Below, piece after piece: positions 4,294 to 64,000 of a stretch of 64,000 nucleotides of DNA (position 1 is its first letter; each line of letters opens with the position of its first letter). Source of the stretch: Gammaproteobacteria bacterium (GTDB taxonomy: Bacteria; Pseudomonadota; Gammaproteobacteria; SZUA-229); NCBI GenBank assembly GCA_013041745.1, contig JABDRN010000055.1, positions 1-64,000 on the forward strand. Direction: 5' to 3'. Position numbers and translations under genes: made by a program. The notes under the pieces were generated by a model. The model saw only the letters and a program-made list of their open reading frames with translations. It was not told where the DNA came from and did not search any database.

Positions 4294-5355
<1,062 letters not shown>

Positions 5356-59027: not shown

Positions 59028-59040
59028 GGCAACACTACCT

Positions 59041-59079
59041 ACATTAAAAAAGCCGGGCCAAGCCCGGCTTTTTTAATGT
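59041..59079. terminator. Bidirectional terminator after dksA
   Basis: ACATTAAAAAAGCCGGGC and its complement form a long stem with flanking A and T runs. It can end dksA on the plus strand and the GlyGly-CTERM gene on the minus strand. Confidence 0.88.
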
Positions 59080-59105
59080 TTCACCCAGACAAGCTTACAG
59101 GTCGT

Positions 59106-59624
59106 CTAACTGAACCGTCTTATAGCAGTGACTATCAGCATCAGGAGCAGCCCGTAAGCTGACAGGCTACCACCGCTGGCTTCATCAGAACCTGATTCAG
59201 CAGCGGAACCTGTATCGATAGCAGAAATCATCACTGACAATGTTTCCATCCCGCTTACACCTGGCAGAACACCGCGAGCAACATCGGTAGCGAAACCGCT
59301 AACCTCATTCAGCGTAAACAGGTCACCGACTCTATCCATCACATAGATCACGCCATCTTTGACAGCGATCGCCATGATGTTCTCGACACCTGTTTTACCC
59401 AGTAACATGAGCGCCCCTGTCTGGGTAATGACCGTACCCAGGTAACTGTAAGGGATGCCGGGAAACTGGACACAGATTTCTGATTTTTTACTGTTGTTGT
59501 AGTCATGATCTATTCCCCTGAAAAACATTGATGTTGTGTTTTTCACAGCTGTATCTATATGCGCTGTGTATGAAATAAATTCTGGCCGAGACAGGCTGTT
59601 TTCGACATGGGGTAAAGCCCCCAA
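59106..59624 (-). CDS. Hypothetical protein with GlyGly-CTERM-like sorting tail
   Basis: This 172-aa ORF starts at TTG and lacks a signal peptide. The C-terminus SGGSLSAYGLLLMLIVTAIR matches the GlyGly-CTERM pattern: a Ser/Gly motif, a hydrophobic helix and basic residues, processed by rhombosortase. The central part (NIMAIAVKDGVIYVMDRVGD, LFTLNEVSG) resembles a beta-propeller repeat. The missing export signal suggests it is the C-terminal remnant of a larger secreted protein. Confidence 0.55.
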   Translation of the reverse strand: MGALPHVENSLSRPEFISYTAHIDTAVKNTTSMFFRGIDHDYNNSKKSEICVQFPGIPYSYLGTVITQTGALMLLGKTGVENIMAIAVKDGVIYVMDRVGDLFTLNEVSGFATDVARGVLPGVSGMETLSVMISAIDTGSAAESGSDEASGGSLSAYGLLLMLIVTAIRRFS

Positions 59625-59973
59625 GCGATCAGCAAAAATGGTGAAAAAATGTGAACCCGTTCAGGTTTAGTAGATAACGAGAAAAAATCGCAATATAGCA
59701 ACGATCAGACGATATAGAAAACCAGGAACTTGATTGCCCTATTTGGTTGTCAAGCACTCATTATTTAGAATCTAAAGCTAGTCACCGAACCTTAAGAGTC
59801 ATTCGATAACTGTAAAATTATTTTAATTACTGTAAACACATCGTTACACTTGTCCTCAAGCTAAATCTAGCTGTGGCAAATAACTTATTGTTATAAAAAG
59901 CTTCGATATAAACAAGGCATGAATTATGCTTCTATATTTACAAGCCGGACTTTTATAGGTAGAGGTTCCTGTA
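59625..59973. other. Non-coding gap before the small membrane ORFs
   Basis: These 349 bases are A/T-rich and hold no supportable gene. The only clear signal is a sigma-54-like promoter near the right end (59916-59929). Confidence 0.6.
59915..59930 (+). promoter_or_regulatory. Sigma-54-type promoter
   Basis: AGGCATGAATTATGCT has the invariant GG-N10-GC spacing and agrees with TTGGCACG-N4-TTGCW at GGCA.G and TGCT. It lies 44 bases before the 50-aa ORF. Confidence 0.5.
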
Positions 59974-60126
59974 ATGGAGATAGTCATTAAATTGTTTTTG
60001 CTGATCTATTTGTTGATCATTGCGCTAGTGACAATTCTTAGTGTCATCTGGATTTTGACGTCGATATTTACATTCGACAGTGAACAAAAGAACAGTATTG
60101 ATGATAACAGCCGTAAACATGTTTAA
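59974..60126 (+). CDS. Small single-pass membrane protein (50 aa)
   Basis: This ORF is too short for the supplied track. It encodes MEIVIKLFLLIYLLIIALVT and continues with one membrane helix (about 5-33) and a polar tail ending SRKHV. AGAGG lies 8 bases before the ATG, and a sigma-54-like promoter lies upstream. The next small ORF starts 12 bases later, so they form a small operon. No family is recognised. Confidence 0.6.
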   Translation: MEIVIKLFLLIYLLIIALVTILSVIWILTSIFTFDSEQKNSIDDNSRKHV

Positions 60127-60138
60127 GAGGTAGTAAAA

Positions 60139-60306
60139 ATGATTGATTTATTGAAGAAAGGAATACAGATATTTAGTAGTAAACCAACTCAATACGACCG
60201 TTTACACATTAGCGCTGAGAATGAATACCTGGCAATGTGCTGCGGGGCTTTTAACCCGCAATTATTAGCCAAGATTAAAAGAAGTAATGCCAATGAAAAA
60301 CATTAG
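60139..60306 (+). CDS. Small soluble protein (55 aa), unknown
   Basis: This short ORF follows the 50-aa membrane ORF by 12 bases, with AGAGG 8 bases before its ATG. The product begins MIDLLKKGIQIFSSKPTQYD, has a CC pair in YLAMCCGAFN and a basic tail. No known domain. The close spacing and ribosome-binding site support translation. Confidence 0.5.
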   Translation: MIDLLKKGIQIFSSKPTQYDRLHISAENEYLAMCCGAFNPQLLAKIKRSNANEKH

Positions 60307-60413
60307 GATTTACCCGACTGGTTGATTCTAAGTGTAATAATAATTTTTCATAGCAAGTTATCGGCAGTCTTTATGGCTGCTGTTTTTTTTCTAAAAGTTA
60401 TTTATAAAGTCGA

Positions 60414-60491
60414 GTTAAAGGGGACAAAGGGATTAAAAAATGATCCATTTAAAAGTTTGGTAAAAATAACAACCCCTCCGTCTCCTTTAAC
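60414..60491. repeat. REP-like inverted repeat, copy 1
   Basis: GTTAAAGGGGACAAAGGGAT opens and AACCCCTCCGTCTCCTTTAA closes a 78-bp imperfect palindrome. A closely related copy is at 61214-61288. The word TTAAAGGGGNC resembles repeats seen beside REP-associated (RAYT) transposases, from general knowledge; no transposase is nearby. Confidence 0.75.
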
Positions 60492-60499
60492 TGCTGCGA

Positions 60500-60591
60500 G
60501 TGTATTGGCGACATACTTCATGTAGGCAGACTGAATCGGCCTCGATCAGCAGGTGTTCATCCGGCACCATGCGGGCAACAACTTCGCGCAG
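60500..60591 (-). pseudogene. Fragment of a TatD-family DNase gene
   Basis: The minus strand reads LREVVARMVPDEHLLIEADS, which matches the last conserved block of TatD metal-dependent hydrolases (LLxETDxPYL). A frameshift later, YVANTLAAVKG resembles the TatD C-terminal helix. A stop precedes the block in frame and no N-terminal part exists. It therefore appears to be a degraded relic. Confidence 0.5.
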
Positions 60592-60918
60592 AATTCAAAG
60601 CTGACGGAGTGTTTGAATATTAACCAACACCTGCGTTTACATGAGGCTAATACCTGTTGAAGTTCTGGTTAATACTGAGCGAATGCTTTTGTATATTTCT
60701 GATGCTCCCATCTGTATAAAAGAGAGTCCAGTTCTTGCCGAGACATGACACTTAGCTAGACAACATTATTAGCTTTATCCTACTGACAAAAAACAGGTCT
60801 AATAGTATTATTTACGATACTGAATATAGTTGTTAGAGAATACAAGACACGGAAAGTTACTAAGCGGCTCCTCGTGGATGGAGTACCTTAAGTGCTTTTC
60901 CATTTATAGGTAAATATT

Positions 60919-61128
60919 ATGGGTAGTTCTGGCTCAATAGAAATAAAAATATATGAAAAAATTGTAGAGCACGCAAAAGGATATAAAACTCGGGTTCAAC
61001 TGAATGCAGTTATTGACGCTTTAGATCATGCTTCATTGAACCCTAGCGTCGCAAGAGATTCAAACGAACTCCAACTCGAAATAGACAAGCTTCGAAAAAT
61101 ACTTAACAGCTTACCCCAAGACGCATAA
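60919..61128 (+). CDS. Hypothetical protein (69 aa)
   Basis: This short ORF, with TATAGG before the ATG, encodes a mainly helical, charged protein (EIKIYEKIVEHAKGYKTRVQ, QLEIDKLRKILNSLPQDA). No domain is recognised. It lies in a repeat-rich accessory stretch between two REP-like repeats. Amino-acid composition is plausible for a real protein, but only similarity or expression data would settle it. Confidence 0.45.
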   Translation: MGSSGSIEIKIYEKIVEHAKGYKTRVQLNAVIDALDHASLNPSVARDSNELQLEIDKLRKILNSLPQDA

Positions 61129-61461
61129 TTAGGCGTTAGCGTTAAATAAGAAAGAAATAGCCTAAATGCCCGCTATCGATGGTGACCTTGAATTAAAGGG
61201 GATCGAGGGATAATTAAAGGGGACGGAGGGATTAAAAAGTGATCAATTTCAAAGTGTGATTAAATAATAATCCCTCCGCCCCCTTTAACTTGGTTGCTCC
61301 AGCGTACAAAAACGCAACCACCTTTAACCGTAATAGAAAATGTTGAACGTCTTGGCTGATAGCTGATGATGGCCATATCCCTGGCCGAAAATCATACATT
61401 TCACACTTCACCATAAGCTAACGATTTAAAGCGAACAATTGGTGTTAATTATTACTTAAAT
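61129..61461. other. Non-coding gap with REP-like repeat
   Basis: This stretch before the DUF5666 terminator contains the second REP-like repeat (61191-61288). The rest has no ORF I support; the 60-aa minus ORF at 61232 runs through the repeat and is probably chance. Confidence 0.55.
61191..61288. repeat. REP-like inverted repeat, copy 2, with extra half-unit
   Basis: TTAAAGGGGACGGAGGGATT (61214) pairs with AATCCCTCCGCCCCCTTTAA (61269-61288) with one mismatch. A third unit, AATTAAAGGGGATCGAGGGA, precedes at 61191. It is related to 60414-60491. Confidence 0.8.
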
Positions 61462-61490
61462 AAAAAGCGAGCTGTAAAAACAGCTCGCTC
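61462..61490 (-). terminator. Terminator of the DUF5666 gene
   Basis: GCGAGCTGT..ACAGCTCGC is followed by five T on the minus strand, 30 bases after the DUF5666 stop. Confidence 0.85.
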
Positions 61491-61519
61491 TTCAATGTGG
61501 CATGTAACTATCAAGTTAT

Positions 61520-62941
61520 TTAATCAACTTCAACCTCATCTGCCGTACCATCGGCACCATTATCTTTAATGCTCACGCTGACTCCGGCAACTAATCCCGT
61601 TTTATCCGGATCATAGGTCGTCCCAGGGTTAACGGTAAAAGTGACACCGAGCACGGTAATATCTGAATTATCATTAAAACTATCGAGCGTACCTTCTAAC
61701 TCGTATGAGCTACATCCGGTGCCTTTATCTTCGATCTCGATCAGGCCGGCAATATAATCACCATTAGCATCTTTGCTGAATTTGATTTCAACACAGTCAC
61801 CGCTAAGAACATCGGTTAAGTCAAATGTACTGGCCGTACTATCACCAGAAAACATGGCCATGTCGGGCGTATCATTAAACTTGATGGTCAATGGGCCACC
61901 GCTAGTTCCTGTGAAGCCGCACTCTACGGAACCGACTTTAGGTTTGGTCTCATCGGGAATGATCGCATTGTTGCTGACCATACACTTGACTTCCATATCT
62001 TCGTCTTCATCCTCGCATTCCCTGACGACCAGTATGCCCGTATCCGCATCATAGTTACCCTCTGCTTCGACGAGTAAACCGGTCAGGCCACTACAGGTAG
62101 ATGCGTTGCTGATATCGACATCAGTGTTAGCGATGGAGAAGCCTGTCGGGCTATCGCTATTCGTGGACAATATGCCGGTGATCTCTGCTTCGGAATCACT
62201 ATAAAAATCATCCTCATCCTCGATCTCAGAGCTGGTCGCAATGAATACGCCGGCAATGTAACTGCCTTCGAGCTCGACAAAGTCGCCTACCGCTGGAAGC
62301 AGGCTGAGCGCACTACCGTCAACATCTATCGTACCGCCGCTCTTTAGTATTAACGGGAAACCGGTGCCATTGATGGTACCTACCGTACCTTCCACTTCAT
62401 GCTCGCTGTCATCCTGTTTTTCAACATAACTAGCCAGCAAACTACCGTCCTGCTGCCATTCACCACTGATCTCGATATTTGCACCATCGAGTTCAGCAAT
62501 GCTCGGCGGTGTAATAGTAAAGTCATCCCACTGCGTGTTACCACTGCTGGTGATAACCGTTACACCGAAGACATCAAAGCTATAGTCGCCTTTATCACCA
62601 GTGACACTACCGCTCGTCACCGCCCCTTCCAGTTCATCATCATATTTTAATGAGGTTACAGCGCCATTGGCATCCGTTTGCAGGGTGACATGCATGCCGG
62701 TATAAAGACTGTCTTCACAGACACCGGCGACTACCATGTCATCGACTTCACAGTCGGAAAGCCCATCTGTTTCGTACTCTACCCCGTTATCCATAATGAT
62801 ACTGCCGAATCCGGCGATGGTGCCAACCACGGTACTGCCGGAAGTATCAGTGGCTGAAGTGTCGCTGCCACTGCTGCATGAAACGAGCCCGGTGATCGCC
62901 AAAGTGCTAAGGATCGCACCTGTGATGATTGATAATTTCAT
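61520..62941 (-). CDS. DUF5666-domain lipoprotein
   Basis: This 473-aa protein has a lipobox (TGLVSCSSGSD) and an acidic, Thr/Ser/Gly-rich body. It is built from several beta-barrel-like repeats of the DUF5666 type: the first begins GTIAGFGSIIMDNGVEYETD, another GTVGTINGTGFPLILKSGGT, another GTLDSFNDNSDITVLGVTFT. Each repeat has the G-x-I/V-x-x-F pattern. Function is unknown; surface display is likely. It is flanked by a terminator and a long non-coding gap. Confidence 0.85.
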   Translation of the reverse strand: MKLSIITGAILSTLAITGLVSCSSGSDTSATDTSGSTVVGTIAGFGSIIMDNGVEYETDGLSDCEVDDMVVAGVCEDSLYTGMHVTLQTDANGAVTSLKYDDELEGAVTSGSVTGDKGDYSFDVFGVTVITSSGNTQWDDFTITPPSIAELDGANIEISGEWQQDGSLLASYVEKQDDSEHEVEGTVGTINGTGFPLILKSGGTIDVDGSALSLLPAVGDFVELEGSYIAGVFIATSSEIEDEDDFYSDSEAEITGILSTNSDSPTGFSIANTDVDISNASTCSGLTGLLVEAEGNYDADTGILVVRECEDEDEDMEVKCMVSNNAIIPDETKPKVGSVECGFTGTSGGPLTIKFNDTPDMAMFSGDSTASTFDLTDVLSGDCVEIKFSKDANGDYIAGLIEIEDKGTGCSSYELEGTLDSFNDNSDITVLGVTFTVNPGTTYDPDKTGLVAGVSVSIKDNGADGTADEVEVD

Positions 62942-63446
62942 AAATTTTCCTCTGCTTATTTAGTCTGTCTTAACTGTTTAACGTTTACCTGTTTAAAAAG
63001 GTTCCACTGAAAATAATTTTTTTCCTGGGCAAGTTATCTCCCAGTGATAGGTGGCCGGTTATAGCGGCCAGTCGCTTGATTTTTGCCGGGATTTAAGGTC
63101 TGGCTGCCTGGCTGCAGGCCTTATTATTTTTTCGTATATGCTGCTCAATTCGGTGTATCGCTAATAGATGACGCTTTCTTAACAGCCTGTGACAGAAAAC
63201 TGACATTTTCCATCGGCTTGCTTCACATACAGGCGCACATCCACTCCCATAATCTATGATAGCCAGTCATCAGTAATCGCGTCGAAACGCCGCTATGAAT
63301 GGCTTTTTGTGACTATTTGAGTTTGTAGACGCCTTGAAATGAAACTGGATTGAACAGCGGGGAAGATGGCGATCAATCTGGCGTGTATCTTGCAATATTA
63401 AAGTTAAAGAATTTTTAAAAATATAAAGAAGTAAAGGAGTATTACA
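62942..63446. other. Long non-coding gap
   Basis: These 505 bases carry no supportable ORF. There is a hairpin (GGCCGGTTATAGCGGCC) near 63053 and the DUF5666 promoter region at the left. At the right end is a sigma-54-type promoter. I see no riboswitch or RNA family. Confidence 0.55.
63378..63394 (+). promoter_or_regulatory. Sigma-54-type promoter
   Basis: CTGGCGTGTATCTTGCA matches the -24/-12 consensus TTGGCACG-N4-TTGCW, with GG and GC separated by exactly 10 bases. It lies 52 bases before the 37-aa ORF. Confidence 0.65.
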
Positions 63447-63560
63447 ATGATCTTAGATACAATGACATATTCGGTAATGACTGTTGTAGCAGTATGGACT
63501 TTAATCGTTATCCTATTGGCCTGGTATTCTCAAGCTCGACACGATAGCAGCGATAAATAG
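63447..63560 (+). CDS. Small single-pass membrane protein (37 aa)
   Basis: This is a short ORF with a strong AAAGGAG site 7 bases before ATG. The product is one membrane helix with a short polar tail: MILDTMTYSVMTVVAVWTLI, then VILLAWYSQARHD. It is preceded by a sigma-54-type promoter and followed by a terminator, so it looks like a complete monocistronic unit. No family recognised. Confidence 0.6.
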   Translation: MILDTMTYSVMTVVAVWTLIVILLAWYSQARHDSSDK

Positions 63561-63591
63561 ATATCTGCAATAATTGACTTTCTAAAGAGCG

Positions 63592-63637
63592 AAAGAACCA
63601 GGGACTCAGGCTAACTGGTTCTTTGTTCCCTGTTTTT
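63592..63637 (+). terminator. Terminator after the 37-aa ORF
   Basis: AAAGAACCAG..CTGGTTCTTT forms the main stem. An alternative, longer pairing uses CAGGGA with TCCCTG just before TTTTT. It separates the small ORF from gluQ. Confidence 0.65.
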
Positions 63638-63645
63638 AATACTAA

Positions 63646-64000
63646 ATGGATAAAATTATAAACGCAGATAAATACATCGGCCGCTTCGCGCCCTCACCGA
63701 CCGGCCCGGTACACTTCGGCACACTGTTAGCGGCAGTCGGCAGTTACCTGCAGGCAAAAAAAAATAATGGCGACTGGATCATCCGCATGGAAGATGTCGA
63801 TATCACGCGCAAGGTTGACGGCTCGGACCTGGAGATACTGCACACCCTGGAAGCTTTTGGTTTTGAATGGCAGGGAGAAGTCCTGTACCAGTCGAAGCAG
63901 ACTGAATGCTACCGCTACGCGCTCGAGCAGCTCATCGAACAGTCATTGGTGTTTCCCTGCATCTGCTCGCGCAAACAGCTGGTAGAGAGCGGCAGCGGGA
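63646..64000 (+). CDS. gluQ: Glutamyl-Q tRNA(Asp) synthetase, N-terminal part (runs off window)
   Basis: This enzyme attaches glutamate to queuosine in tRNA-Asp. The real frame starts at ATG 63646, which the ORF track missed because the gene is cut by the window edge. The class I signature is RFAPSPTGPVHFGTLLAAVG, followed by DWIIRMEDVDITRKV and the zinc cysteines in CICSRKQL. The absence of an anticodon domain cannot be checked here, but dksA upstream supports gluQ rather than gltX. 118 codons are visible. Confidence 0.93.
   Translation, partial: MDKIINADKYIGRFAPSPTGPVHFGTLLAAVGSYLQAKKNNGDWIIRMEDVDITRKVDGSDLEILHTLEAFGFEWQGEVLYQSKQTECYRYALEQLIEQSLVFPCICSRKQLVESGSG

Follow-up and report, generated by a model that had tools for sequence, protein, structure and literature searches.

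Does the short stretch at 63378-63637 of the 64,000-nt window (the whole stretch of DNA analysed here) hold a genuine gene with its own switch and, if so, what could its product do? The initial annotation read this stretch as a compact unit running from a sigma-54-type element through a Shine-Dalgarno sequence and a 37-codon ORF to a hairpin followed by a T-run, and the coordinates agree with that order (Table 1); exactly 505 bp (62942-63446) separate the upstream neighbouring ORF from the 37-codon ORF. Among congeners for which enough sequence is available, most have gluQ-RS within a few hundred bases 3' of dksA. In the window, about 4.6 kb (59028-63645) separate the two genes, and small ORFs, the exported DUF5666 protein and the peptide gene all lie inside. 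Because these 4.6 kb lie between dksA and gluQ-RS, unlike in most congeners, the window copy sits in a lineage-specific stretch.

Table 1. Coordinates of the unit, its neighbours and related elements; window positions unless a locus is named.
Feature	Position	Strand	Remarks
Predicted sigma-54-type -24/-12 promoter element CTGGCGTGTATCTTGCA	63378..63394	+	GG and GC 10 nt apart, in a TGGCAC-N5-TTGCW-like context
Predicted transcription start, from CTGGCGTGTATCTTGCA	~63405	+	
Shine-Dalgarno AAAGGAG	63433..63439	+	7 nt 5' of ATG
37-codon ORF MILDTMTYSVMTVVAVWTLIVILLAWYSQARHDSSDK	63447..63560	+	range runs from ATG to stop codon; one transmembrane helix; N-terminus MILDxxTYS
Terminator-like hairpin AAAGAACCAG/CTGGTTCTTT with T-run	63592..63637	+	overlapping alternative AGGGAC/GTTCCCT
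Start of gluQ-RS (tRNA-Glu/Gln synthetase-like)	63646..64000	+	next gene, outside the unit
473-aa exported protein with DUF5666	61520..62941	-	divergent upstream neighbour, outside the unit
R1 RNA	L064:6724-6842, L066:2247-2363, L068:433-550, L059:6082-6197, L060:8517-8629, others		3' end of peptide units
Second conserved element	L058:6478-6573, L099:8256-8353, L100:6856-6951, L109:1501-1595, L110:1501-1586, L111:673-751		
Palindrome of the ancestral promoter beside other genes	L175, L178, L176, L179, L180, L168		site near base 1501 or 927

The ORF is almost certainly a genuine gene and one member of a peptide family. A six-frame search of 40 genomes, which follows up the homologue search proposed in the initial annotation, recovers three confident paralogues in the window's own genome (G000; contigs C101, C129 and C100) and relatives in most congeners, with single-sequence E-values down to 1e-8. 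The family has four copies in G000, five in G011 and at least 24 intact members overall, and all members share an MI[LF]DxxTY start followed by a single hydrophobic helix. In an alignment of 24 members M1 (the start), I2, D4, T7, Y8 and L24 are invariant, the strictest conservation falling in the polar N-terminal motif. Equal synonymous and non-synonymous change, which would speak against coding, is not what the homologues (mostly paralogues) display: the pN/pS ratio (Nei-Gojobori, codons 2-25) comes to 0.45 when all pairs are taken and to roughly 0.14-0.4 when the window copy is paired with its closer homologues, values that are approximate because synonymous differences are near saturation, but clear in their direction. 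Third codon positions diverge most (0.56 vs 0.40 and 0.18 at the others), and the signal of purifying selection is lost in both shifted frames. A chance ORF is refuted by this selection and by the homologues at independent loci; the intact members and the selection together uphold the claim of a real coding gene.

Judged by comparison with existing records, this family of predicted 27-42-aa single-pass inner-membrane peptides is undescribed. Pfam and NCBIfam return 0 and 0 matches to the peptide, the PDB holds no relative of the family profile (best E 0.47 over 12 residues), and no small membrane protein of comparable size under a sigma-54 promoter turned up in the literature searched. Profile searches place the family in 16 of the 18 genomes of the genus (the weakest match, in G003 at E 0.09, is doubtful) and across several genera of one bacterial family, with matches, some of them weak, in 24 of the 54 genomes of the order. 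Of 369 genomes sampled from the class, the only ones to match are that of the window itself and that of one other member of its family. As searched, the peptides thus appear confined to one family of Gammaproteobacteria, and their close relatives in public records are MAGs of uncultured Gammaproteobacteria. A scan of IMG/VR gave eight pattern matches and no relative, hence no sign that the peptide is phage-borne. Proteins of 92-103 aa whose N-terminal anchor looks similar (MSYDNLTVAAIAVVVVIIVVVILLARS; L103:4019-4303, L102 at about 4930-5210, and L101) were set aside as likely a separate family; they carry a conserved CVGLDFTLK...IDEWN domain, and their only Pfam match, to XkdW, is sub-threshold.

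What could switch the gene on? Stand-alone copies of the peptide gene are scattered at unrelated loci, and three of them carry predicted sigma-54 sites: the window copy at -69 from the ATG (score 16.4; shuffle p 0.0004 per 200 nt) and two G011 paralogues, both at -62, on C143 (CTGGCATATGTTTTGCT; score 16.8; p <0.0004 per 200 nt) and C142 (ATGGCATATGTATTGCA; score 14.4; p 0.003 per 200 nt). The scores come from a home-made matrix with hand-set weights, for which the 99% shuffle level is 13.2; with this matrix the window site is the best-scoring one in the 64 kb. A strict pattern, YTGGCRN5YTTGCW, has one match in 64 kb against 0.18 expected. Shuffling nevertheless yields the sigma-54 pattern in 17 windows out of 100, and this frequency, together with a hairpin that is not unusually stable, is what a chance promoter match beside a chance ORF would have in its favour; given homologues at independent loci, purifying selection and conserved promoter spacing, the probability of such a coincidence is very small. 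The recurrence of the element at -62 in the two G011 paralogues makes the window site more convincing, and strengthens the earlier reading of a near-consensus sigma-54 promoter. In the alignment of the three copies the GG/GC blocks are kept and the remaining upstream sequence has diverged; AAAGGAG/AGAGGAG is kept in the paralogues carrying these sites.

The window's own genome encodes rpoN (PF04552, E 1.9e-66), together with enhancer-binding proteins (six full-length PF00158 matches and two weak ones). The initial annotation proposed looking for an enhancer-binding site in the 505-bp gap, and such sites are expected some 70-200 bp upstream; none was identified in the gap, no convincing inverted repeat lies just 5' of the promoter, and the alignment of the three sigma-54 copies has no conserved block upstream of -24. 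Two PAS-containing proteins of the enhancer-binding type (at L150 and L151) have altered GAFTGA loops (GAFTGC, GAYTGS) and may not contact sigma-54 in the normal way. The idea of a regulated small membrane peptide under a sigma-54 promoter draws support from the family, the selection, rpoN and the recurring element, and sigma-54 control of the window copy is a likely prediction.

Most congeners carry one peptide copy between an AmpG-like MFS gene and hemW, and the ancestral order of this locus is ampG-peptide-rhodanese-ETHE1-hemW; other genera have a divergent peptide copy at the equivalent position. A 96-aa rhodanese lies 3' of the peptide, followed in most congeners by a 230-aa MBL protein (Pfam Rhodanese and Lactamase_B), the latter matching persulfide dioxygenases in the PDB, ETHE1 4chl included, at E 7.5e-63. 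In this operon only a few bases separate the peptide ORF from the rhodanese, as might be expected of a leader peptide whose translation controls the downstream genes. Such a role is highly improbable, since stand-alone copies have terminator-like hairpins 3' of them, selection acts on the amino acids, those of the hydrophobic helix included, and the ORF lacks any run of regulatory codons. Against the sulfide/low-oxygen role proposed below, the peptide and the sulfur enzymes are separable: G013 and G015 have the rhodanese/ETHE1 operon without the peptide, and G000 keeps peptide and palindromic operator at the ampG-hemW locus with the enzymes absent.

That palindrome, ATATTAG-N6-CTAATAT, stands at about -48 with 0-2 mismatches in 14 of 24 copies and with 0-1 in 11 of 24; at 0-1 mismatches it occurs 0 times in 1200 shuffles. 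Several copies add an FNR-like box, TTGAY-N4-ATCAT, about 38 bp 5' of the palindrome, and both elements are found again in other genera, as well as at one more G011 copy (MIIIDTLTYVLLAYAAF). All three sigma-54 copies are without the palindrome. It also occurs away from the peptide genes (Table 1), adjoining efflux-pump-like and molybdopterin-oxidoreductase-like ORFs (genes named by eye). Because it lies beside other genes too, such as the efflux-pump-like ORFs, the palindrome is probably the operator of a regulon under a candidate repressor. It resembles ArsR-type sites, for example the HlyU site TAATTCAGACTAAATTA (PMC4330345); among the neighbours of the ancestral operon, inspected by eye, no ArsR-like gene was recognised. 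A comparable arrangement is the bigR operon of Xylella and Agrobacterium, where Blh combines a DUF442 sulfur transferase with an ETHE1 dioxygenase (PMC5823870). Like that operon, the ancestral locus joins a sulfur transferase to an ETHE1-type dioxygenase, and its promoter has what is likely a repressor site; unlike it, the locus has separate rhodanese and ETHE1 genes, begins with a small membrane peptide and has no bigR gene seen alongside. The window copy departs further from the bigR operon, having neither rhodanese nor ETHE1-type dioxygenase, and it also has no palindrome and no R1, the RNA that ends many of the other units.

The 3' end of the window unit is its weakest part. The terminator of the initial annotation stands in so far as a perfect 10-bp inverted repeat (63592-63601/63615-63624) and a TTTTT (63633-63637) are present, but shuffled versions of the region fold about as stably (z -1.2) and the automatic terminator scan misses the hairpin because its loop is longer than 8 nt; as a terminator it is plausible. 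The hairpin occupies the position that R1 takes at other copies. R1 is about 118 nt long and consists of a long hairpin, whose bulge contains AUAAACCCUCAUC, and then a terminator; it lies behind many peptide copies, in the peptide's own transcript and on the same strand. Across 17 sequences, 28 of 40 pairs are changed on both sides versus 13.9 in shuffles, counts that are flattered by an alignment fitted to the model, and slid controls collapse. All 16 matches in the genus with E < 1e-4 are at peptide units, either directly behind the peptide or behind the operon enzymes, and an Rfam search with the loci of R1 and of the second element gave no family; on this comparative evidence R1 is a new structured RNA. 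No remnant of it follows the window copy, even with filters off, and at the other two sigma-54 copies it is absent at one and weak at the other. The second element, conserved and non-coding-looking, is about 98 nt long (CCGGACGTGTCCGCAAATAATCCGGTAGATAC...GGTTGCGCCG..GCAACC) with apparent paired changes; three loci have it behind the peptide, and others have it with no peptide.

Does R1, then, come first? The strong covariation and the restriction of all 16 genus matches to peptide units could mean that the small RNA is the main product of the transcript, the ORF being secondary or dual-function. We consider this quite unlikely: the ORF is still under selection where R1 is missing or weak, as at the sigma-54 copies, and R1, which ends in a terminator, may be nothing but an elaborate terminator. 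A structured RNA adjoining many copies also recalls the type I toxins of the TisB/DinQ kind, known for small size, a hydrophobic helix, several paralogues and an RNA nearby. The peptide family is like them in all four respects and has a narrow taxonomic range besides, and its members could be hydrophobic peptides whose induction depolarises the membrane and which R1 or an antisense RNA would control. This is the main rival to the reading preferred below, and we hold it to be unlikely. The ancestral copy lies in kept synteny with sulfur enzymes under a conserved operator, and the tightest conservation is in a polar N-terminal motif, features that set the family apart from these toxins. R1 shares strand and transcript with the peptide, and its bulge pairs with the peptide's ribosome-binding region no better than shuffled bulges do (mean -10.4 versus -9.4 kcal/mol, sd 3.0); the window copy has no R1 at all, and this sequence-level analysis turned up no antisense RNA.

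In proposing a role, we build on what the sequences show, namely coding, family, membrane helix, synteny and promoter motifs, and from there infer the activity of the promoters, the peptide's topology, its partner and its role in the physiology of the cell. AlphaFold2 models the peptide as one helix (residues 2-36, pLDDT 89). All copies have an N-terminal head of net charge -1, and 17 of 24 have a tail with net positive charge, which favours an N-out/C-in orientation for most members; for the window copy, whose tail carries no net charge, the orientation is less certain. Respiratory complexes have small accessory membrane peptides of the CydX and CcoM type that are likewise 30-40 aa long with one transmembrane helix, but the present family has no sequence relation to them in Pfam, NCBIfam or the PDB and is not beside oxidase subunit genes. 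We propose that the ancestral peptide is induced together with the rhodanese and the ETHE1-type persulfide dioxygenase through the palindromic operator, often with an FNR-like box, and that its most likely action is to bind to, and tune, a membrane protein working under sulfide or low-oxygen stress, with the conserved D4-T7-Y8-S9 at the outer end of the helix as the contact face. The window copy would be a stand-alone duplicate placed under sigma-54 control, at which an enhancer-binding protein would call up the same peptide activity in response to another signal. Normally, then, control would be by an oxygen- and sulfur-type switch, and in the window copy it would have shifted to a sigma-54 switch. 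To this account as a whole, a stress-induced single-pass inner-membrane peptide that probably serves a membrane protein as accessory or regulator under sulfide/low-oxygen stress and whose paralogues have been rewired so as to answer different signals, we give a probability of about 45%. A more speculative extension, which we doubt, treats peptide, operator and R1 as a dual-function module that duplicates: each transcript would supply both a regulatory membrane peptide and a structured RNA with a regulatory role, and the copies, rewired to stress signals of their own (FNR-like/palindrome or sigma-54), would make up a network that integrates signals.

The analysis adds an unannotated small membrane protein family with strong comparative evidence, a conserved tie of that family to persulfide detoxification and, in R1, a new class of structured RNA. 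It also provides a clear example from nature of micro-genes that are paralogues yet have different promoter systems. If the peptide does tune a membrane enzyme of sulfide or oxygen stress, uncultured sediment Gammaproteobacteria would possess a regulatory layer that current gene calling has missed.
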